In this document: piece after piece, positions 409-45,854 of the stretch
Layout of the letters: the number at the start of each line of letters is the position of its first letter
How positions within the stretch are numbered: position 1 is the first letter of the stretch
DNA from: Ferrithrix thermotolerans DSM 19514
Lineage (GTDB): Bacteria > Actinomycetota > Acidimicrobiia > Acidimicrobiales > CAIXPF01
Direction of reading: 5' to 3'
DNA length: 64,000 bases
Assembly (NCBI GenBank): GCA_945906305.1
Contig: CAMDQT010000016.1
Span: forward strand, 1-64,000
Made by a program: the position numbers and the translations under genes
Notes under the pieces: model-generated
Seen by the model: only the letters and a program-made list of their open reading frames with translations
Told to the model about the DNA's origin: nothing
The model's database searches: none

Positions 409-497
409 TCCATCTAAGCACCCCTCCGGCGCCGGTCTTGGTTTCTCGACCGCGCCGAAGGCCGACCCGTAAAGTTCCCCCCGGAGGTTCCGCCCTG

Positions 498-2708
498 ATG
501 AGCTCAATCCCCGATTTCGCCGCCGTCGACCTCGGCCCCCTACACGCTTCTCCGCCCGATAGCACGGCCTGGGCAACCGCCGTGCAGGCCGCAACGGGCC
601 AAGGCCCCGAGGACCTCGGCTGGGACAGCCCCGAAGGCATTGCCATCAAGCCGTTGTACACCGCCGCGGACCGCGACGGACTGGACTTCGTCGACGGCTA
701 TCCCGGTATTGCCCCTTACCTCCGCGGCCCCTACCCCACCATGTACGTGAACCAGCCGTGGACCGTGCGCCAATACGCCGGCTTCTCCACTGCGGAAGCC
801 TCCAACGCCTTCTACCGCCGCAACCTCTCCGCCGGCCAGAAGGGACTATCCATCGCCTTCGACCTCGCCACCCACCGCGGCTACGACTCGGACCACCCCA
901 GAGTGGTGGGCGATGTCGGCATGGCAGGCGTGGCCATCGACTCGATCTACGACATGCGTCAACTCTTTGACGGCATCCCACTCGATGACATGACCGTGTC
1001 GATGACCATGAACGGTGCGGTGCTTCCGGTGATGGCGCTGTACATCGTGGCGGCCGAGGAACAGGGGGTGACCCCCAAACAACTCGGTGGGACCATCCAA
1101 AACGACATCCTCAAAGAGTTCATGGTCCGCAATACCTACATCTACCCGCCGGCGCCTTCGATGCGGATCATCTCGGACATCTTCCGCTACACGTCGCGCC
1201 ACATGCCGCGGTTCAACTCCATCTCCATCAGCGGCTATCACATGCAAGAGGCCGGCGCCACCGCCGATCTCGAACTCGCCTACACCCTGGCCGATGGCGT
1301 GCAGTACCTGCGGGCAGGCACCGAGGCTGGGCTCGCGGTGGATGCGTTCGCTCCTCGGCTCAGCTTCTTTTGGGCGATCGGCATGAACTTCTTCATGGAG
1401 GTCGCCAAACTGCGGGCGGCGCGGCTGCTGTGGGCCAAGCTGGTCAAGCCGTTCGGCCCGACAGACCAACGATCGCTGTCGTTGCGTACCCACAGCCAAA
1501 CTTCGGGCTGGTCGCTCACCGCGCAGGATGTCTACAACAACGTGATCCGTACCTGTGTCGAGGCCATGGCCGCCACCCAGGGCCACACCCAGAGCTTGCA
1601 CACCAACTCCTTCGACGAGGCACTGGCGTTGCCCACCGACTTCTCCGCTCGCATCGCCCGTAACACCCAATTGGTCCTCCAGCAGGAGTCGGGGACCTGC
1701 GCGGTCATCGACCCGTGGGGCGGCAGCTACTACGTGGAACGGCTCACTGCGGACCTCGCCGCCAAAGCCTGGGCCCACATCAGCGAGGTCGAGGCGATGG
1801 GCGGGATGGCGGAGGCCATCAACGCTGGGGTACCCAAGCTGCGCATCGAGGAGGCCGCGGCCCGCACCCAGGCCCGCATCGACGCCGGCCGCCAGACCGC
1901 CGTCGGAGTGAACAAGTACCGCCTCGACCACGAGCCGCCGGTAGACGTGCTCAAGGTGGACAACGCCGCGGTACGGGCCGGACAGATCGCCAAGCTCGAA
2001 CGCTTGCGGGCCGAACGCGACCCCCAAGCGGTGCAGAGCACGCTCGATGCACTCACCACCGCCGCAGACCGCGGCGATGCCAACCTGCTCGATCTGTCTG
2101 TCGCCGCGGCCCGCGCCAAGGCCACCGTCGGGGAGATCTCCAACGCCATGGAGAAGGTTTTCGGCCGCCACGTGGCCCAGATCCGCATCATCAGCGGCGT
2201 GTACTCCCGGGAGGTCGGCATGACAAACGCGACCGTGCAACGGGCCAAGGAACTCGTGGAGTCCTTCGAGGCCCACGACGGGCGACGGCCACGGCTACTC
2301 GTCGCCAAGATGGGACAGGACGGCCATGACCGCGGTCAGAAGGTGATCGCCACCGGCTTTGCCGATCTCGGCTTCGACGTGGACATCGGCCCGCTGTTCC
2401 AAACCCCGGCTGAGGTGGCCGGCCAGGCGGTAGATGCGGACGTGCACGTAGTCGGCGTCAACTCCCTCGCCGCAGGACACCTCACCCTGGTACCCGAGCT
2501 GAAAGCACAGCTCGAGGCCCTCGGCCGCGGGGATATCCTGATTGTGGTCGGCGGGGTCGTACCGCCCCAGGACTACGACGCGTTGCTCGCGGCCGGTGCT
2601 ACTGCCATCTACCCGCCGGGCACCGTGGTGGCTGAGGCCGCCGTGGACCTGCTCGGCAAGCTCAGTGAGCTGCTCGGCCATTCGGGCCCGCACGGACCTG
2701 CGGCCTGA
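498..2708 (+). CDS. mutB: Methylmalonyl-CoA mutase large (catalytic) subunit
   Basis: 736 residues, the usual size for MutB. It catalyses the B12-dependent rearrangement of (R)-methylmalonyl-CoA to succinyl-CoA. The N-terminal TIM barrel carries the conserved [17 protein letters not shown] and [12 protein letters not shown] stretches. The C-terminal B12 domain shows DGHDRG (the lower-ligand DxHxxG motif) followed by NSLAAGH and VVGGVVPP. The ATG at 498 was chosen because GGAGG lies at 483-487. The frame is open further upstream to 438, but those 20 residues look unrelated to the family. It sits between mutA and meaB, the standard order for a mutase operon. Confidence 0.97.
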
Positions 2709-2751
2709 TTTCGGGCTCGGCGCAACCTGCAGTGCGTCCCAACCCAGCCGG

Positions 2752-2757
2752 TAGCGT
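2752..2757 (+). promoter_or_regulatory. Candidate -10 (TAGCGT) for leaderless meaB
   Basis: The hexamer TAGCGT fits TANNNT and lies 8 nt before the GTG start of meaB, which has no visible Shine-Dalgarno sequence. This spacing would put the transcription start at or next to the start codon. No -35 is evident. meaB may also be read through from mutB. Confidence 0.35.
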
Positions 2758-2765
2758 GATCATCC

Positions 2766-3782
2766 GTGGCGCCGACCCTCACGCTTGACGAGTACTACGA
2801 CGGTGTCCTAGCCCGCAATCGCATGATCGTGTCGCGGGCGGTGACCCTGGTTGAGTCCACCCGGCCCGCCCATCAGGAGCTCGCTCAGGCTCTGCTCATC
2901 CGCCTGGCACCCCATAGCGGTGCCGCGCACCGGGTGGGCATCACCGGCGTGCCCGGGGTGGGAAAATCGACCTTTATCGAGCGGTTCGGTATGCAACTCA
3001 CCGGCCTCGGTCACCGGGTGGCCGTCCTCGCGGTCGACCCAACCTCCTCCCGCACCGGGGGCTCGATCCTGGGCGACAAGACCCGCATGCCACAGCTGTC
3101 GACCGACCCGGCGGCGTTCGTGCGTCCGTCGCCCTCCCGCGGCACGCTGGGTGGCGTGACCCGAACCACGCGGGAGACGATCGTCGTGGTGGAAGCGGCG
3201 GGCTACGACGTGGTCCTGGTGGAAACCGTCGGGGTCGGCCAATCCGAGACGATCGTGGCGGACATGGTCGACTTCTTTCTCGTGCTGATGCTGGCGGGAG
3301 CGGGCGACGACTTACAGGGCATCAAGAAGGGCATCCTCGAACTTGCCGATCTGCTCGCCGTCAACAAGGCCGACGGCAACAACGTCAAGCGGGCCACGGC
3401 GGCGGCAGCGGATTACGCCGCGGCCGTTCATCTCATTACCCCTTCGGGGGCATTGTGGCAGCCTCCGGTGATGACCTGTTCGGGCCAGACGGGTGGAGGT
3501 CTGGACGCGATCTGGTCCCATATCGAGCGCCACCGCCAGCTCCTGGAAGGGACCGGCGATTGGGCCGCGCGTCGTCGCGCCCAGCAGCTGCGCTGGATGT
3601 GGGCCATGGTCGAGGGGCGTTTACTCGAACATCTGCACTCGCGCACCCATCATCTTGCCCAGCGTCTCGAACCGATGGTGCAGGCGGGAACGCTCACCGC
3701 CGCCCTCGCCGCCGAACAACTCCTCGCCGCCTTCGAGAACGATCCGGGGCGCGAGTCCCCCGACGTATCCTCGGCGCCCTAG
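2766..3782 (+). CDS. meaB: MeaB/ArgK-type G-protein chaperone of methylmalonyl-CoA mutase
   Basis: 338 residues. MeaB is a P-loop GTPase that gates cobalamin loading into methylmalonyl-CoA mutase and protects the enzyme from inactivation. The Walker A motif GVPGVGKST is present, followed by the conserved [20 protein letters not shown] region, the [10 protein letters not shown] switch region and the guanine-specificity motif NKADG. The extended helical C-terminus is also typical. GTG at 2766 starts a family-like N-terminus. It lies 57 bp after mutB, which supports a mutase-specific role rather than another G3E GTPase. Confidence 0.95.
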
Positions 3783-5813: not shown

Positions 5814-6626
5814 TCACACCAAGCCAACCGTGGCGAAAGCGATGGCTGCCGCCGCAGCCGCGTTGAGTGAGTCGATACCGGGCCGCATCGGGATACGAAC
5901 GGCCTTGTCGGCGGCGGCGAGCGCGGCCCGGGTGAGTCCGTCTGCCTCGCTGCCCAGCAGCACCGCGACTTTGGCCGCGCGCCGAGGCACCGTAAGCGGC
6001 TCGGCGGCGGTGGGGGTCAACGCCAGCACCTCAAAGCCTTGCCGGTGCAGCCGGTCAAGGCCGTCGGGCCACGGATCGAGCCGGGCCCACGCCAGCCGCA
6101 GGACCTCGCCCATGGACACTCGCACGGTGCGGCGGTACAACGGGTCCGCGCAACGGGGGCTGAGCAGGATGGCGTCGATGCCCAAAGCCGACGCGCTGCG
6201 GAACAGGGCGCCGAGGTTGGCTTGGTCCGTGAGATCCTCCAGCACCGCCAGCCGACGAGAACCGGCGATGAGTTGGTCGGGGTCCGCCACCGGTGGCCGT
6301 TGCACCGCGGCCAGAACCCCACGATGCACGTCGAATCCGGACACCGCGGCGAGCAGCGCCGGTTGGGCGACCAGCACCGACGGCGCGGCGGGCAGCACAT
6401 CAGCGAGGCGGGCCGCGGCGTGAGGGGTCACCACCACGGTGCGGACGTGCTGCGGACAATGCTCAAGGACCCGTCGTACGACGTGCAGGGACTCGGCGAG
6501 GAATAGACCATCGGGGCCCTCGGGCGATCGCCGCCACTGAGCGTCAGTCAGATTGCGGAACGGATCGAGCGCCGGATCGGCGGGATCCACCACGACACGA
6601 CGAAGGGAGCCTTGGCCGTGGCTCAC
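5814..6626 (-). CDS. SpoU/TrmH-family RNA 2'-O-methyltransferase
   Basis: 270 residues. The three SPOUT signatures are visible in order in the C-terminal half: DLTDQANLGALFRSASALG (motif 1), VAVLLGSEADGL (motif 2) and IPMRPGIDSLNAAAAAAIA (motif 3). Together they form the trefoil knot that binds S-adenosylmethionine and contacts the catalytic arginine and asparagine. The N-terminal third is a substrate-binding domain like those in rRNA methyltransferases of the TsnR/RlmB type. The GTG start at 6626 overlaps the stop of the Nudix gene by 4 bp (GTGA), indicating translational coupling. The frame is open further upstream, but only inside the Nudix gene. The RNA target is not identifiable. Confidence 0.9.
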   Translation of the reverse strand: MSHGQGSLRRVVVDPADPALDPFRNLTDAQWRRSPEGPDGLFLAESLHVVRRVLEHCPQHVRTVVVTPHAAARLADVLPAAPSVLVAQPALLAAVSGFDVHRGVLAAVQRPPVADPDQLIAGSRRLAVLEDLTDQANLGALFRSASALGIDAILLSPRCADPLYRRTVRVSMGEVLRLAWARLDPWPDGLDRLHRQGFEVLALTPTAAEPLTVPRRAAKVAVLLGSEADGLTRAALAAADKAVRIPMRPGIDSLNAAAAAAIAFATVGLV

Positions 6627-7504
6627 GTGCCCCCACGGCGCAGCTTGACCCAGCCGAACTCCGTGTCGGGGTCGCCGTCCTGCCATCCGGGTTCGCCCGG
6701 GAGCAGAATCCGGTAGATCTCGCCCTCACGTTGAACGCGGATCTGGTGGGGTTCTAGATCGAGCGCGGCCGCGGACACCGCATCGGCGGCGCGGGCGAAG
6801 GGCAGCAGGCACATGAGCATGCGGGCAGTGGGCGACATCATCGCCATCTGGTCGGCCTGCCAGCGCTGAACCGCCAACGCGGGAGCCACCCATTCGTGAT
6901 GCACGATTTCGTTGTCGTCATGGGCGGCGACCTGTCCGGCAGGCGCCGCGGCGAGGAAAAAACGGGTGTCGAACCGGCGCGGCGGCCCGACCGGGGTGAT
7001 CCAATGGCCGATGTAGTGGATACGTGCCGCGTCGAGCACCACAGATTCCTCCGCGATGATGTCGGCGAAGGTTCGTGTGCCACCGTTGAGGTCCGCCCGG
7101 TGCCGCTCAAGACGGGCCACGGTTTGCGGGCTGGACACGTCGATGGCTTCGCCGTCCGAGGCCCGCCGGGCCAGCAGGATGCCAGCTTCCTCAAAGCACT
7201 CGCGCAACGCCGCCACCCAATAGGCCAGACCGCCGTGGGACACACCGAGCCGACGGTTGGCCTCGGCCGCATCGAGGCCAACCACGTGGCCCGCGGCAAT
7301 CGCCTCGTCCTGGTCATCGACGCGACCCCCCGGATAGACCCACATGTCCCCGCCGAACACGGCCTGGGAGGTGCGGCGCAGCATCAGGACCCGCAGTTCG
7401 TCGCCGCGGGCGGTGGCCACGTCCTCCACCACCATCACCGTGGCCGCGGGGCGGATCGGAACCGTGGTCACGTCGAACTCGGCGTCGTCGGTCATCGGGG
7501 GCAT
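6623..7504 (-). CDS. Nudix hydrolase with an expanded Nudix box (NUDT19/CoA-diphosphatase-like)
   Basis: 293 residues from the ATG at 7504; a second ATG lies at 7495. The first half of the Nudix motif (PGGRVD, residues 58-63) and the second half (RECFEEAGI, residues 101-109) are separated by about 27 residues more than in a canonical box. This insertion is characteristic of NUDT19-type CoA or acyl-CoA diphosphatases. The catalytic glutamates are retained. These enzymes cleave a pyrophosphate bond in nucleoside-diphosphate derivatives. It lies upstream of, and overlaps by 4 bp, the RNA methyltransferase gene. Neighbouring acyl-CoA genes make a CoA-linked role reasonable, but that is inference. 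Confidence 0.8.
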   Translation of the reverse strand: MPPMTDDAEFDVTTVPIRPAATVMVVEDVATARGDELRVLMLRRTSQAVFGGDMWVYPGGRVDDQDEAIAAGHVVGLDAAEANRRLGVSHGGLAYWVAALRECFEEAGILLARRASDGEAIDVSSPQTVARLERHRADLNGGTRTFADIIAEESVVLDAARIHYIGHWITPVGPPRRFDTRFFLAAAPAGQVAAHDDNEIVHHEWVAPALAVQRWQADQMAMMSPTARMLMCLLPFARAADAVSAAALDLEPHQIRVQREGEIYRILLPGEPGWQDGDPDTEFGWVKLRRGGT

Positions 7505-7692
7505 TGCCGTCTTTCGAACAGGACGCCCGATTGGTGCGTCATGGACAACAGCCTGCCATCTGCAGCCAACGAGCCAATGAACCTGCCCTTCGGCCACCAT
7601 TGGGCGAAGGTGGCTGAGCCACGGTAGCGCCGCTCGATTCGCGGCCGAAGCCCGGGCCGGCACGGCTCGCCCCCCGGCCGCGTGTGCGGCGC

Positions 7693-7698
7693 TATCGT
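7693..7698 (+). promoter_or_regulatory. Candidate -10 (TATCGT) for the uORF/P-loop transcript
   Basis: TATCGT lies 7 nt before an ATG at 7706 that opens a 15-codon ORF coupled to the P-loop gene. The flanking sequence is very GC-rich and no -35 is seen. The spacing implies a leaderless transcript beginning at the small ORF. Confidence 0.5.
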
Positions 7699-7705
7699 GG
7701 GTGCG

Positions 7706-7753
7706 ATGGTGACGGTTCAGGCACGGCGCCGACCTGCCGACAACCAGTATTGA
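7706..7753 (+). CDS. Small upstream ORF (15 aa) coupled to the P-loop gene
   Basis: ATG at 7706 opens MVTVQARRRPADNQY and ends with a TGA whose last base is the A of the ATG of the next gene (TGATG). It has no ribosome-binding site but sits 7 nt behind TATCGT, so it would be read as a leaderless message. Ribosomes finishing here would be placed exactly on the start of the P-loop gene. The peptide has no recognisable domain. It could be only a device for translating the downstream gene, which lacks a good Shine-Dalgarno sequence of its own. The evidence is positional. Confidence 0.5.
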   Translation: MVTVQARRRPADNQY

Positions 7754-9663
7754 TGAGCGGCGAGACCTACTACGGCCTACGGGAGATGGTCCTGCCAGGA
7801 CCGTCCCAAAGCACGGGTTACCGGACCATTCTGGTGATTGGCACCACCGGCGCGGGCAAGTCCACGCTCATACGCCAGTTGATGGGCACGTCGGCCCACG
7901 AAGCGTTCCCGGCCACTTCGGCGTCCAAGACCACGGTGGCCGAGACGGAGTTGTTGCTCGCCCCGGGCGACTTTTACGCCGTCGCCACCTTCATGCCGCT
8001 GACCGAGATCCAGGCCTACCTCGAAGAGAACGTGGTCGCCGCGGGGCTCGCCTTCTTCGATGACCGTCCGGGCGCGGAGATACACGCCCGGCTTCTCGAC
8101 CACGTCGACCAGCGCTTCCGCCTCCGCTACCTGCTCGGCGAGCCGCTCACCGGCGATCACCCCGTGGCCGTGGCACCCGACGAGGCGTTGTCGGGCAACA
8201 TCACCGCCATCGTCAACGAGATTCACCGCCTGCTCGAGGAAGCCGTCACCGAAGAGGTCGACGTGATGGTGACCACCGGTGCCGCCACTGCGCAGACCCC
8301 CGAGGAGGAGTTACACATCCTGCTCAAGGACCGCCTCGCCGCCAACCCAATCGTGATCGAAATCGTCGAGTTCCTCATCGCCGAGGTGCGGGCCCGAGTG
8401 GCGATCCTCGCCCCCACCGACGTCGTGACCTCACGTGACGGCTGGCCGCTGTACTGGCGTTGCCATGAGAGTGACCGAGACGTGTTCCTCAAGCGGCTAC
8501 GCACCTTCGCCGGAAACGACCACGCCGATTTCGGCCACCTGCTCACCCCTATCATCAACGGCCTGCGGGTCCGTGGACCGTTCCACCCGTCCTGGGCCCG
8601 CGAGATCCCCTACGTGATGCTGATCGACCGGGAAGGCCTCGGCCACACCCCCGATTCGGTGTCGAGCCTGCCCAGTTCGACCACCAGAGCCTTCGACGAG
8701 GTCGACACCATCATCATCGTTGACAACGCCTGCCAGCCGATGCAGGCGGCACCCGTGGCGGCCATGCGACAGATCGCCGCCGCCGGACACGGCAACAAGC
8801 TCATCGTCTGCTTCACCCACTTCGAACAGGTGCACGGTCCCAACCTGCCCACCCACGATGCCCGCCGACACCACGTGATCGCCTCGGTAGATCAAGTCCT
8901 GTCCGCCATCGGCAACGAGTTGGGTTACCCAACCGAACGGCTGCTGCGGCAGCGGCTCGATTGCAACCTCTACCTCATGGCCCGCCTCAACGAGGTGGTG
9001 ACCGAAACGTCCGATCCGCCTACCCACGCCGAACTGCGCTGGCTCCTCGGACAGCTGCGGGTCGAGGCCCACCCGCTCGATATCGGCGAGTCGCTGCCGC
9101 ACTACGGTCACGACCAGCTGCATCGCGCCGTTCAGGAAGCCGTCGCGGCTTACTTGCGCTACTGGGAACTCCGGCTGGGGGTCGATACCGACCCGGCCAT
9201 CCGGCCCGCCCATTGGTCCAAGGTACGGGCGTTGTGTGTCCGCTACGCCCGTACGGCTAGCGACGAATACGAGTCGATGCGTCCCGCCGGTGACCTCATC
9301 GCCGCTCTGACCGACTCGTTCCGGCGCGTCGTCGCCACGCCCGAGGGCTGGACCGGCACCATTCCCGATGAGGACCACGAGCAACACATCTGCGACAGCC
9401 TTACCCGCCTGGTGAACGCGCGGCTGCGGCCCCTGGTCACCGATCGCCTGTTCCTCGACGCCACAGAATTGTGGGCCGAAGCCCGCGATGTCACCGGTGC
9501 CGGTGCCGCCCAACAGCGAGCGGAATTGGTGTATCGCAAGATTCTCCGCCGTCAGATCGGCGCTGAGGGCGGCGTGCCCATGGGCGATTACCCTGACTTC
9601 GTGTCCGCCGTAGTACACGCCACGGCCGTCGAAGCGGCCAAGTTCGGCATCCGCTTCGACTGA
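7753..9663 (+). CDS. Uncharacterised P-loop NTPase (GTPase-like)
   Basis: 636 residues, not assignable to a named family. A hydrophobic strand leads into a clear Walker A motif, GTTGAGKST (residues 30-38). SKTT near residue 60 could be a switch-I threonine. A long mostly helical stretch follows, and only at about residue 290 does a hydrophobic strand end in DREGLGH, resembling a G3/Walker B site. The strand near residue 355 ends in CFTHFEQV where GTPases normally have N/TKxD. The C-terminal 270 residues look helical. No transmembrane segment or signal peptide is evident. The ATG at 7753 overlaps the stop of a small upstream ORF. A dynamin/septin-like mechanochemical GTPase or a defence-related NTPase are possibilities; neither is shown. 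Confidence 0.75.
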   Translation: MSGETYYGLREMVLPGPSQSTGYRTILVIGTTGAGKSTLIRQLMGTSAHEAFPATSASKTTVAETELLLAPGDFYAVATFMPLTEIQAYLEENVVAAGLAFFDDRPGAEIHARLLDHVDQRFRLRYLLGEPLTGDHPVAVAPDEALSGNITAIVNEIHRLLEEAVTEEVDVMVTTGAATAQTPEEELHILLKDRLAANPIVIEIVEFLIAEVRARVAILAPTDVVTSRDGWPLYWRCHESDRDVFLKRLRTFAGNDHADFGHLLTPIINGLRVRGPFHPSWAREIPYVMLIDREGLGHTPDSVSSLPSSTTRAFDEVDTIIIVDNACQPMQAAPVAAMRQIAAAGHGNKLIVCFTHFEQVHGPNLPTHDARRHHVIASVDQVLSAIGNELGYPTERLLRQRLDCNLYLMARLNEVVTETSDPPTHAELRWLLGQLRVEAHPLDIGESLPHYGHDQLHRAVQEAVAAYLRYWELRLGVDTDPAIRPAHWSKVRALCVRYARTASDEYESMRPAGDLIAALTDSFRRVVATPEGWTGTIPDEDHEQHICDSLTRLVNARLRPLVTDRLFLDATELWAEARDVTGAGAAQQRAELVYRKILRRQIGAEGGVPMGDYPDFVSAVVHATAVEAAKFGIRFD

Positions 9664-9724: not shown

Positions 9725-10570
9725 TCAATCTGGCGCTGAAGGCGGCGGCGGGGTGCCTGCCGCCCGACGGGCGCGTAGCAACGCCTCCTGCACAATGGTC
9801 GCCACATGCTGACCGTCGCGGTCGAACACCTGGCCGATCGACAAACCCCGCGCCCCACCCACGAAATGGCAGGAGAAGTCCAAAAGCAGCCAGTCATCGG
9901 CCCGGGTGTGCTGGTGAAACCACACGGCATGATCGAGGCTGGCCCCCATGAACACGTCGTTGTGCTGCTCGCGGGGAATGTCGCCTTGGGGGTGGGTAGC
10001 CCGCACCGCCGCCACCGCCGACGTGTCCGATGCCAGCGCCAGCGCGCAGGTCTGCGCGACCGGATTGTCGCCCACCGACTCGTCCACGCGCACCCAGGTC
10101 AGAACCCGACCGCTGCCATGCACGTAGGGGACCGTGCGCCGCTCCAACATGAAACCCCAGCCCTCCTCGGGCAAGGTCTCGGGGTCGGGCACGTTGAGCG
10201 GAGCCATCATCGTCTGCACCCTCGGGGCTTCCTCCGGGCTGTGGAATGACGCCTCCAGGGTGAGGATGGCGCCGTAGGACTGTCGGGCCACCACCCGGCG
10301 GGTCAAGAACGACAACCCGTTTCGCACCCGGTCGACCTCGTAACGCACCGGCTCGTCGAGTCGGCCGCCAAGAATGAAATAGGCGTGCAAGGAGTGCACA
10401 CCATGGGCATCGTCCACCGTCGAACACGCCGCGCTGAGGGCTTGGGCGATGACCTGACCGCCATAGATGCGACCCCATCGATAGGGCGGACTGACCCCCA
10501 CAAACGTGTCCGGGCCGTAGGGTTTCAGCGCCAGCATCTCGGCGTAGTTTCTTGGCTCGGGCAACATCAT
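9725..10570 (-). CDS. tesB: Acyl-CoA thioesterase II (TesB-like)
   Basis: 281 residues, the length of the double-hotdog TesB family, which hydrolyses acyl-CoA to free acid and CoA in the cytoplasm. The N-terminal hotdog carries RWGRIYGGQVIAQAL and SLHAYFILGG. The C-terminal hotdog carries ASLDHAVWFHQ and DDWLLLDFSCHFVGGARGLSIGQVFDRDG. These are characteristic TesB stretches, including the D/T/Q-type active-site region. Two ATG codons stand in tandem at 10570 and 10567 and the first was taken. It is convergent with the P-loop gene and divergent from the LLM oxidoreductase. Substrate range is unknown. Confidence 0.93.
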   Translation of the reverse strand: MMLPEPRNYAEMLALKPYGPDTFVGVSPPYRWGRIYGGQVIAQALSAACSTVDDAHGVHSLHAYFILGGRLDEPVRYEVDRVRNGLSFLTRRVVARQSYGAILTLEASFHSPEEAPRVQTMMAPLNVPDPETLPEEGWGFMLERRTVPYVHGSGRVLTWVRVDESVGDNPVAQTCALALASDTSAVAAVRATHPQGDIPREQHNDVFMGASLDHAVWFHQHTRADDWLLLDFSCHFVGGARGLSIGQVFDRDGQHVATIVQEALLRARRAAGTPPPPSAPD

Positions 10571-41524: not shown

Positions 41525-42848
41525 GACGAGGGGGGATGTGGTGCGGCCCTTGCGGGCGTAGCATCTTGGCCAACATCGCGGCCGGATCGGCCACTGCAGG
41601 GCTCAACTCGCGGGCCAGTGGGCCGAGCACGGGGCTGCCCAGCCGATCGACACGAGCCGCGGCGAGCAGCGCCGCCGTGATGCATTCCTCGACATCACCG
41701 ACGCACTCGAACGGCTTGTTCTCCCCCGAAAGGCCCGCCAGGGTACGAAACGCGGTGCTCAACTCGGCGTTGTCGAGCGGTTCGTTGCCGGCGAACACCG
41801 CTCGAAGCGCCTCGGCGGGCAAGAACGGGGCCAGCACGAGGTCCACAAAGCAGCATTTGTCACAGCGACCGCACCAGTGGTCGAGACGCGCCGCCCGATC
41901 GATGTGGAAGGCCCGGTTACAGCTGCGAAAGGCCCCGTGATAGGCGGTGAGTTCGGCGAAACGTTTGCCGACCCACAGCTCGCTGAAGGGTCGCAGCCAG
42001 GAGAAGTACGACAGCGGTGTCCGCAGCACGTCGGCGAGGGCGGATCGGAACAGCTCTTCGAAGGCGAGGGTCTTGGACCACTGGTGGTTCACCAGTCGGC
42101 CCTGGTGATCGACATTGCCCGACGATGCCGACCACTCGTTCGACATCACCACCGCGTCCCGGTCATCGAGCAGCGCTGCCATGACCGCGATGGCGGAGAT
42201 GATGGCGGTCACCGGAACATGCCCGTTGCGGTAGCCAAGGGCGGCGGAGCGCAGGACCTTTGGATCGAGCAGACGCTCGGCCCGCACCACCGGTAGGCCG
42301 CTGACCGCCGCCGCCTGCTCGAGAGCGTCGAAACGGTCCCCTTGACGCGACACCACGAACAGCGCCGCCGATGCTGCGCCGGGCCGGACTCCCTCGACGG
42401 TGACGATCGAGTCGATGCCGCCGCCGAAGGGGATGAGAGCTCGCTCGGCGGTGGCGGGCCGCGTCGTTCGGAACGGGATCGCCGCCGCGGCGTCGATGAC
42501 CAGACCGCTCAGATCAAGGTCGTTGCGATAGGCGTACTCACCGAGTCCGTCCCGATAGGACGCCTCGAGCAGGGCCCTTTCGCCCGGCGTGAGAGCGAAA
42601 GGCACCGAGACCAGCGGTGGTGCCGCGGCCTTGTAATAAGACAGGCCAGCGAGCAGGAACACCAGCCTGGCAGCCGCTTCGAGCCCCACTGGCTCGCGTC
42701 GGGCCGGAGCGAACGTCACCCATTCTTCAAACGCCAACTCGTCGAGGCCATAGCGACAACGCAGCCGGCCACTCGCCTTGTCGAAGTCGACATCGACATA
42801 GCGGAAGCAGGCGACCTGCTCGGGACGAAACCGGTCCGACCCGCTCAC
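41499..42848 (-). CDS. murL: MurL-like UDP-MurNAc-L-Ala-L-Glu epimerase
   Basis: 449 residues. The pyrophosphatase-type loop FGGGIDS (residues 141-147) shows an ATP-binding N-type PP-loop domain. A cysteine cluster HWCGRCDKCC (324-333) and WLRPFSELWVGKRFAELTAYHGAFRSCNRAF support the MurL family in blocks. MurL activates the terminal L-Glu of UDP-MurNAc-L-Ala-L-Glu with ATP and inverts it to D-Glu, replacing glutamate racemase. It starts at GTG 42848 without a visible ribosome-binding site. The overlap with murD places both in one transcript, which strengthens the assignment. Confidence 0.85.
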   Translation of the reverse strand: MSGSDRFRPEQVACFRYVDVDFDKASGRLRCRYGLDELAFEEWVTFAPARREPVGLEAAARLVFLLAGLSYYKAAAPPLVSVPFALTPGERALLEASYRDGLGEYAYRNDLDLSGLVIDAAAAIPFRTTRPATAERALIPFGGGIDSIVTVEGVRPGAASAALFVVSRQGDRFDALEQAAAVSGLPVVRAERLLDPKVLRSAALGYRNGHVPVTAIISAIAVMAALLDDRDAVVMSNEWSASSGNVDHQGRLVNHQWSKTLAFEELFRSALADVLRTPLSYFSWLRPFSELWVGKRFAELTAYHGAFRSCNRAFHIDRAARLDHWCGRCDKCCFVDLVLAPFLPAEALRAVFAGNEPLDNAELSTAFRTLAGLSGENKPFECVGDVEECITAALLAAARVDRLGSPVLGPLARELSPAVADPAAMLAKMLRPQGPHHIPPRHAPSDLLV

Positions 42849-43001
42849 CGGCGTGCTTGATCCGCCGCGAGGCGACAGCCGCTCATCGGTCGGACAACAA
42901 CGGCCCAGGCAACCACATCACGAGCCTACCCCGCTCCTCGGAGGGGCCCCGGTACGGCGGGCGCACCACCCCCGGTTCGGGCTCAGCGCCGATGCCAACC
43001 C

Positions 43002-44484: not shown

Positions 44485-45717
44485 TCAGGGGGTGGCGATG
44501 GGGCGATCAGCGCGCTCACCGCGCTCATACAGGCTGTCGTAACCGAGCCGCTCCAGGCAGACCTCGGCGGTCCAAGGCAGCATGAGCGCGCCGCAACGGC
44601 TGTCGCGGTAGTAGCGCTCCAGCGGGTAGGCGCGTGAGATCGACCCTCCCCCACAGGTCCGAATGGCCAGCCGACAGATGTCGTTACCGAGCTCCATCAC
44701 GCTGTACTGAGTGGAAAACCCGCGCAACATCGCGGCGCGTGACGGGTCGACCTTGGCCTCGCCGATGGCCCGCAGAAACATGGCCCATATCTGGTCCAGC
44801 TTGACCCGCATCTCGGCCACCGCGAGCTGCTTGGTGGTGCTGCGCCGCCGCGGCTCACCCGTTGTGCCTGGCACCTCCCCCCGCAGATACGCCACCGTGA
44901 AATCGAAAGCGGCCTGGGCCACACCGACGTAGGTCGGGCACAACGTCATAAACATGTGTGGCCAGCGTCGGGCCAACTCGGCGTAGACCCCACGCGGCAT
45001 CAGCTGGCGTTGTTCGGGCACGAACACGTCGACGAGGTCGAGCGTGCGCGACACCGTGGCCCGCATGCCGAGCGGGTCCCAAGAGCCCGAAATGGAAAAC
45101 CCCGGCGAATCGGCTGGCACACCCAGGAACAGCGTGTCCGAAAAGCTTGCCCCGCCGGTCCCTCCGGGGAGGACCTCGGTGGCGGTGACGGTGTACATGT
45201 CCGCCGCACCAGACAGCGAGGCGAAGTGCTTGCGGCCATTGAGCACCCAGCCACCCTCGACCGGAGCGGCGATGGTCGAGAACACCAATGCCGTGCCGGC
45301 GAGGTTTGAACTCGGCTCGGAGAAGGGTTGGGCGTAGAGCAAGCCGTCTTGGACCACCGAGCGGTACAGCTCGGCTCGGCGTTGTTCGTGGGGCTGCTGC
45401 ACCTCTGCTGGCAGGCCGAGGTCGTCGCACAGCACGCTCGACCACAGCATGGACACGCTGTGCATGTTGAACGTAAGTGCGGTGGCGCCGTCGTGGCGGC
45501 CAAGTTCCGCCGCCACCAGGGCGTACTGTTCGAAGTTGGCACCCATACCCCCGTGTGCTTCGGGAATGCATAACGCCAGCAGCCCGTGCTGGCGTAGATC
45601 GCGGTAATTCTCGAAGGGGAACACGGCGTCACGATCGTTGGCCGCCGCCCGAGGGGCGAATCGTTCCCGCCCTAGCGTGCCGACGAGTTCGATGACCGCA
45701 TCGAGATCTGGGTTCAT
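44485..45717 (-). CDS. Acyl-CoA dehydrogenase-like flavoprotein
   Basis: 410 residues. The N-terminal helical domain (LCIPEAHGGMGANFEQYALVAAELG in part), the middle domain (QPFSEPSSNLAGTA, GGWVLNGRKHFASLSGAAD) and the C-terminal helices (CGGGSISRAYPLERYYRDSR) define the fold. The final motif ending YRDSRCGALMLPW replaces the usual catalytic-glutamate region of beta-oxidation enzymes. It is therefore likely to belong to the broader group that includes flavin-dependent monooxygenases. ATG 45717 follows GAGG. It lies between gltX and the tRNA genes on the same strand, though functionally it seems unrelated to them. Confidence 0.87.
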   Translation of the reverse strand: MNPDLDAVIELVGTLGRERFAPRAAANDRDAVFPFENYRDLRQHGLLALCIPEAHGGMGANFEQYALVAAELGRHDGATALTFNMHSVSMLWSSVLCDDLGLPAEVQQPHEQRRAELYRSVVQDGLLYAQPFSEPSSNLAGTALVFSTIAAPVEGGWVLNGRKHFASLSGAADMYTVTATEVLPGGTGGASFSDTLFLGVPADSPGFSISGSWDPLGMRATVSRTLDLVDVFVPEQRQLMPRGVYAELARRWPHMFMTLCPTYVGVAQAAFDFTVAYLRGEVPGTTGEPRRRSTTKQLAVAEMRVKLDQIWAMFLRAIGEAKVDPSRAAMLRGFSTQYSVMELGNDICRLAIRTCGGGSISRAYPLERYYRDSRCGALMLPWTAEVCLERLGYDSLYERGERADRPIATP

Positions 45718-45854
45718 GCCCGCCGCCTCACACCAACCCGGGTGTCTGGCCCGTGATTTGCGCCGCCCAACCAACCCCGGCGGGGGGCAACTCGCAGCGC
45801 GCCAGAAGCGTTGAGCCAGCGGCTCGGCATCAGTTCGATCTGCACGGCGCGATG

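Follow-up and report, generated by a model that had tools for sequence, protein, structure and literature searches.

This locus raises two questions. To which protein family does the P-loop protein encoded near the start of this stretch of 64,000 nucleotides (the window) belong? Does the short open reading frame (uORF) that overlaps its start codon take part in its translation? The layout given by the initial annotation (TATCGT, 7 nt, ATG at 7706, a 15-codon frame, TGATG, P-loop gene) is present exactly in the sequence. Coordinates are collected in the table; G001 and G003 are same-genus genomes, in which the protein is 85% identical to the window copy.

Table. Features of the locus, further short ORFs of the window, and genes flanking the plasmid-borne relatives.
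Feature	Sequence	Position	Strand	Remark
Promoter -10-like hexamer TATCGT	window	7693..7698	+	TAACGT in both same-genus relatives (G001, G003)
In-frame GTG, alternative uORF start giving 18 codons	window	7697..7699	+	in all three same-genus sequences
uORF, 15 codons, MVTVQARRRPADNQY	window	7706..7753	+	start codon ACG in G001 and G003
TGATG stop/start overlap	window	7751..7755	+	TTGATG kept in G001 and G003
Putative dynamin-like GTPase gene, 636 aa, short form	window	7753..9663	+	
G1/Walker A GTTGAGKS, residues 30-37	window	7840..7863	+	motif in 24/24 sequences
KTT, residues 59-61, probable switch I (G2)	window	7927..7935	+	
Helical insertion in G domain, residues 103-255, approximate	window	8059..8517	+	from DSSP of the model; borders inferred
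G3-like DREGLGH, residues 292-298	window	8626..8646	+	
G4-like FTHFE, residues 354-358	window	8812..8826	+	FTH[FA]D in relatives outside the clade
C-terminal helical region, residues 453-629	window	9109..9639	+	predicted model
Leaderless-type short ORF, 23 codons, GTGA overlap onto 449-aa ORF	window	42845-42916	-	
Leaderless-type short ORF, 43 codons, GTGA overlap onto 410-aa ORF	window	45714-45845	-	
Type I methyltransferase	L050, plasmid flank			
Type I RM	L051, plasmid flank			by annotation
BrxL	L052, plasmid flank			by annotation
Weak DpdB match	L053, plasmid flank			
CBASS cyclase (E 1.6e-115) and phospholipase effector (E 1.6e-156)	L054, plasmid flank	9390-11228		begins 134 nt behind the Caballeronia copy
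ZorD/DpdE-like helicase	L056, plasmid flank			
AbiD (E 7.2e-58)	L058, plasmid flank			

The initial annotation did not recognise the family and proposed a profile search. That search matched no well-described family with this layout. No family of Pfam, NCBIfam, PHROGs or PADLOC covers the protein; the matches are weak and, with few exceptions, confined to the P-loop. In PHROGs there is nothing beyond weak P-loop-like matches, which give no phage family identity. PDB chains, searched by sequence, give no significant match. Pfam Dynamin_N stays below its cut-off of 27 bits, both for the window protein (E 0.019, 15.4 bits, P-loop only) and for the best relative (2.2e-4, 21.7 bits). The PADLOC profile mad8 matches the window protein weakly around the P-loop (4.5e-5). 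The PADLOC profile LeoA, which we take to represent a bacterial dynamin, matches residues 430-561, on the G3-G4 side, of a relative from a phage contig (L040, E 6.6e-5). Both matches are partial, none is full-length, and PADLOC holds no model of the family. Septin, Roc/LRRK2, ABC and AAA identities are rejected, their weak sequence matches ending at the P-loop. No description of this protein family was found in the open-licence PMC literature.

The fold was approached through two predicted models. The AlphaFold model of the window protein is of moderate confidence (13 sequences, pLDDT 75, pTM 0.75). Searched with Foldseek against the PDB, it gives eight matches at E<=0.001, all eight to the dynamin superfamily: an oligomerised bacterial dynamin pair, presumably that of Campylobacter, SynDLP, BDLP and Drp1. 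In VIA-align the best score is that of mitofusin 1 (Z 16.8, 228 residues, 3.4 A), with IniA at Z 16.5 over 307 residues at 7.3 A, BDLP at Z 14.6 over 388 residues at 6.5 A and EF-Tu at Z about 13.5-13.8. The second model is that of a phage-borne long form of 766 aa, 34% identical to the window protein (L034; pLDDT 74.7, pTM 0.62). All 22 of its Foldseek matches to the PDB at E<=0.001 belong to the dynamin superfamily, and VIA-align gives a like picture, its best Z being 16.8. A viral model library yields one match at E<=0.001, a Catovirus dynamin-domain protein. In the model, KTT is followed by two strands, a long helix, the insertion and two further strands up to DREG, an order that we take to resemble a dynamin G domain with an enlarged G2-G3 segment. 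A dynamin-type NTPase was among the cores proposed initially, and the fold searches of both models bear this out in finding the dynamin superfamily first. The predicted models thus have a dynamin-type G-domain fold.

Motifs were counted in 24 sequences, for G1, G3 and G4 only; in GKTT sequences the KTT found is that of the P-loop itself. Left out of the count are near-duplicates and fragments from IMG/VR (L038, L041, L042, L044, L046, L047, L049), L057 (same annotated protein as L053), the plasmid hits H7 and H8 and the split gene of G005, a genome from another genus of the window's family. G1, D.[EQ]GLGH and F[TS]H[FA][DE] are present together in 24/24 sequences. G1 follows the GxxxxGK[ST] of the dynamin superfamily throughout. 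The superfamily G3, DxPG, is absent: DREG is found in the window copy and DTEG, DGEG or DGQG in relatives. The superfamily G4, [T/N]KxD, is likewise absent, with THFE in the window copy. The initial annotation read CFTHFE as a replacement of N/TKxD. It is instead the family's own [TS]H[FA]D in which D has become E in this clade: three of the 24 sequences (window, G001, G003) read [TS]HFE and the remaining 21 TH[FA]D, and the motif of the G005 fragment also ends in E. The exchange of D for E may loosen guanine choice, a prediction from the sequence. Between KTT and the G3-like motif lie 232 residues, predicted as mostly helix with few strands. The layout noticed at the outset (Walker A at residue 30, DREGLGH at 292, a long helical insertion) is real, but it is not unusual within the family, since it is common to all 24 sequences and is the family norm. 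In the models, a helical insertion between G2 and G3 enlarges the G domain, and helical bundles come after it. Of a dynamin stalk or bundle with its membrane-binding paddle, what is seen is the C-terminal helices and the BDLP alignment, long (388 residues) but at 6.5 A. Transmembrane segments were not found in the four sequences checked.

The name dynamin-like, and not classical dynamin, is used because DxPG, T/NKxD and the Dynamin_N cut-off are all missed. On the models and motifs the window protein appears to be a divergent dynamin-like GTPase, not a proven dynamin, that would presumably hydrolyse GTP. It resembles SynDLP, the Campylobacter DLP pair, BDLP and IniA, the top fold matches of both models, in having G1, a switch Thr and DxxG, then helical bundles. 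It differs from these bacterial dynamin-like proteins in DxEG/DxQG for DxPG, in THxD/E for T/NKxD, in the longer G2-G3 insertion, in the lack of a significant PDB-chain sequence match and in the missed Dynamin_N cut-off. The likeness to mitofusin/Fzo1 is the best VIA-align Z and extends over the G domain. Mitofusin/Fzo1 is eukaryotic and membrane-anchored; in the four sequences of the present family that were checked, no transmembrane helix was found. Likeness to the LeoA/LeoBC and mad8 profiles does not go beyond the weak partial matches given above. A parallel by description only is Bacillus subtilis DynA, reported to be a dynamin-like protein that protects the bacterial population from phage and delays lysis (PMC8844932); for the present family such a role would be by analogy.

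Relatives are rare on chromosomes. They were found in 5/59 genomes, all of the window's own family. The search of the class matched 6/395 genomes, three of the six only over short stretches at borderline E. The profile search of phylum and class gave, besides the known relatives, only short partial matches at borderline E. A 24-row tree separates the six short forms of Acidimicrobiia, as one clade (100/99), from the remaining 18 rows; it is rooted by midpoint only, and long branches are flagged by the tree program. Three of the six are a second chromosomal copy (copy B). In the window genome copy A was found, but not copy B. Copy A is fixed near the same metabolic ORFs in the genus. The dN/dS between genus copies is 0.13-0.145, that is, the window copy is under purifying selection. 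Copy B lies near a gene that is clpX-like by our reading of its sequence (L019 9721-11574 in G001, L020 3089-4972 in G003, L018 10264-12186 in G002). The G005 copy (L017 7758-9670, minus strand) is split by a frame change at about residue 227 and is a pseudogene or an assembly error.

Relatives also occur on mobile elements: in 11/72,556 plasmid records, in 0/50,697 phage records and on 16 IMG/VR contigs. Several of these contigs are near copies of each other and are therefore not 16 independent cases. On 11 of the 16 the gene lies antisense inside a head-tail gene module, in eight between the tail terminator and a PHROG 6367 gene and in three between the tail tube and the tail terminator. This antisense siting in a tail module is the moron pattern. 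Two more copies adjoin head/tail genes on the same strand; L060, L068 and L069 do not. Long forms carry an N-terminal bbb-a domain (L034 model) with a weak DUF6538 match (E 0.029); short forms, the window protein included, are without it. An arm-domain identity of this N-terminus is not adopted: only that match and the bbb-a secondary structure speak for it, so the likeness is treated as resemblance.

Plasmid neighbourhoods were examined for 9 of the 11 hits; L053 and L057 are near copies, which leaves eight distinct. In seven of the eight, the flank includes a defence gene identified by annotation or by a PADLOC match (table), L053 being counted on a weak DpdB match and L056 on the helicase alone. 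The flank of L055 has no defence gene by annotation. Outside plasmids, a TIR-like effector is matched in G248, a type II methyltransferase lies beside L068 and a type I REase occurs in L069. Integrases or recombinases are found near L060, L069 and L050. Two small controls were read by names only: another 31 kb of pD (24 features) holds just the edge of the same RM system, and 50 kb of pCP135 (37 features) includes HNH and a CHAT protein. An ORF of 598 aa directly downstream of the Rhizobium copy (L053 9266-11062) has no Pfam or PADLOC match and is possibly a partner. Next to the window copy there are no defence genes; its neighbours are metabolic or housekeeping-like ORFs. By our reading of the sequence these are presumably a Nudix-type hydrolase (reverse strand, 6623-7663) and an acyl-CoA thioesterase (reverse strand, 9725-10570). 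Elsewhere in the window, positions 438-3782 appear by the same kind of reading to hold a methylmalonyl-CoA mutase ORF and, after it, a MeaB-like P-loop ORF.

The start of the window gene is compact. Seven bases separate TATCGT from ATG 7706. The uORF stop (7751-7753) and ATG 7753 have the A in common, a 1-nt overlap and not an RTGA tetramer; translation of the main gene could alternatively begin at TTG 7750, with a TTGA overlap. No Shine-Dalgarno was found before ATG 7753. A longer N-terminus of the main gene, beginning at GTG 7684, is rejected because both G001 and G003 have a stop just upstream in that frame. An attenuator or riboswitch is likewise ruled out: leader folding is no better than that of shuffles, no terminator was found in the leader, and the Rfam search gave two tRNAs and otherwise no match.

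The leaderless signature, TANNNT with 5-8 nt between it and a possible ATG/GTG start downstream, was counted over the 49 window genes called by a simple script. It precedes 11/49 called genes against 2/480 internal in-frame ATG/GTG codons and is more frequent than chance in this window. On both strands there are 22 TANNNT-start sites, 7 of which open ORFs of 3-50 codons. A short ORF was scored as coupled when its end overlapped, by TGATG or NTGA, the start codon of a frame coding for 150 aa or more. Three of the seven leaderless short ORFs are coupled, against 192/1815 short ORFs overall (binomial P=0.03). With the enriched signature and three of seven short ORFs coupled, the arrangement therefore fits a habit of this genome. 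Mycobacteria are reported to have leaderless small ORFs, a subset of them coupled by RTGA (PMC4633059). Common to both cases is a short ORF of leaderless type that ends in a TGA overlapping the start codon of the gene behind it; the tetramer there is RTGA, unlike TGATG (or TTGA with TTG 7750) here, and the present, putative case belongs to another actinobacterial class.

Whether the 15 codons are translated was judged from the same-genus relatives. The initial annotation held that absence of the uORF from close homologues would speak against it. The uORF is half absent in this sense, because both relatives have ACG in place of its ATG; two codons into the uORF stands ATG in G001 and AAG in G003, the latter with no ATG anywhere in frame. 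The 7-base gap after the hexamer, the frame, the TGA and the TTGATG overlap are retained, and amino acids 4-13 (VQARRRPADN) are identical in all three sequences. In codons 4-15, five bases differ between the window and G001, at codon positions 3, 3, 3, 3 and 2; G001 and G003 are the same in this stretch, so that it is one comparison only. The 60 nt upstream match at 35/60. The G005 genome has no such uORF. An alternative is that TATCGT drives an ordinary leader of ~47 nt and that the 15-codon frame is coincidental. It is a real possibility, held at clearly less than an even chance. It accords with the ACG codons, with the lack of a uORF in G005 and with a third-position bias that rests on five changes (4/5 by chance about 0.045, by simple arithmetic). 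It accounts poorly for the missing Shine-Dalgarno, the retained frame, stop and overlap, the two further leaderless coupled short ORFs of the window and a leader that folds no better than its shuffles. The leaderless-type start with a coupled uORF is plausible, the hexamer being spaced as at other window genes, but the ACG in both relatives weakens the case for it. The uORF frame is probably translated, from a start that is not fixed. The mRNA would probably begin at or next to A7706. The ribosome would translate the mini-ORF without a Shine-Dalgarno, stop at TGA and restart at the overlapping ATG.

As to function, about an even chance is given to the following reading: the family consists of dynamin-like GTPases that protect against phage or other membrane insult, and the window gene, a short form that became domesticated, depends on a leaderless mini-ORF for its translation by termination-reinitiation. 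The window gene would then represent a chromosomal short-form branch, and the other branches would be accessory genes of plasmids and prophages. Defence against phages or other mobile DNA is the most probable task of these mobile branches. As an analogy with bacterial dynamins suggests, nucleotide-driven assembly on a membrane or around a target could let the population withstand phage or envelope damage. A more specific and tentative proposal, rather unlikely as a whole, is an immune-dynamin lineage. In its mobile long forms a DNA-sensing domain resembling an integrase arm would be joined to a dynamin-like motor, and these forms would serve as defence cargo of plasmids and prophages. Its short forms in Acidimicrobiia would be domesticated; one of them has an altered G4, perhaps with an effect on nucleotide choice, and its dose would be set by a leaderless mini-ORF.

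Chromosomal short forms might instead maintain membranes or act in division, conflict work being left to the plasmid and prophage branches. This is considered unlikely. The fixed loci of copies A and B in the genus, the purifying selection on copy A and the single short-form clade would fit such a housekeeping role, yet a housekeeping protein would hardly be so patchy (5/59 genomes; 6/395 in the class, only three of them beyond a short stretch), a scarcity that is odd, nor be without copy B in the window genome. Less probable again, and distinctly doubtful, is a maintenance factor of plasmids and prophages, in which the arm-like N-terminal domain of long forms binds DNA and the GTPase serves DNA positioning, integration or segregation, not defence. 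The bbb-a domain with its DUF6538 match, the nature of the carriers and the integrases or recombinases near three copies agree with it. Many unrelated defence systems as neighbours, the antisense moron position in tail modules and the lack of the N-terminal domain in short forms, the window protein among them, argue against it.

The dynamin relatives Mx and IRG guard animal cells against viruses. If the protective reading is true, a mobile dynamin-like family that stands beside CBASS, BREX and restriction genes has been missed by the family models searched, and it would provide a testable link between dynamins and immunity in bacteria. The leaderless coupled mini-ORF would be a likely example of such an arrangement outside mycobacteria.
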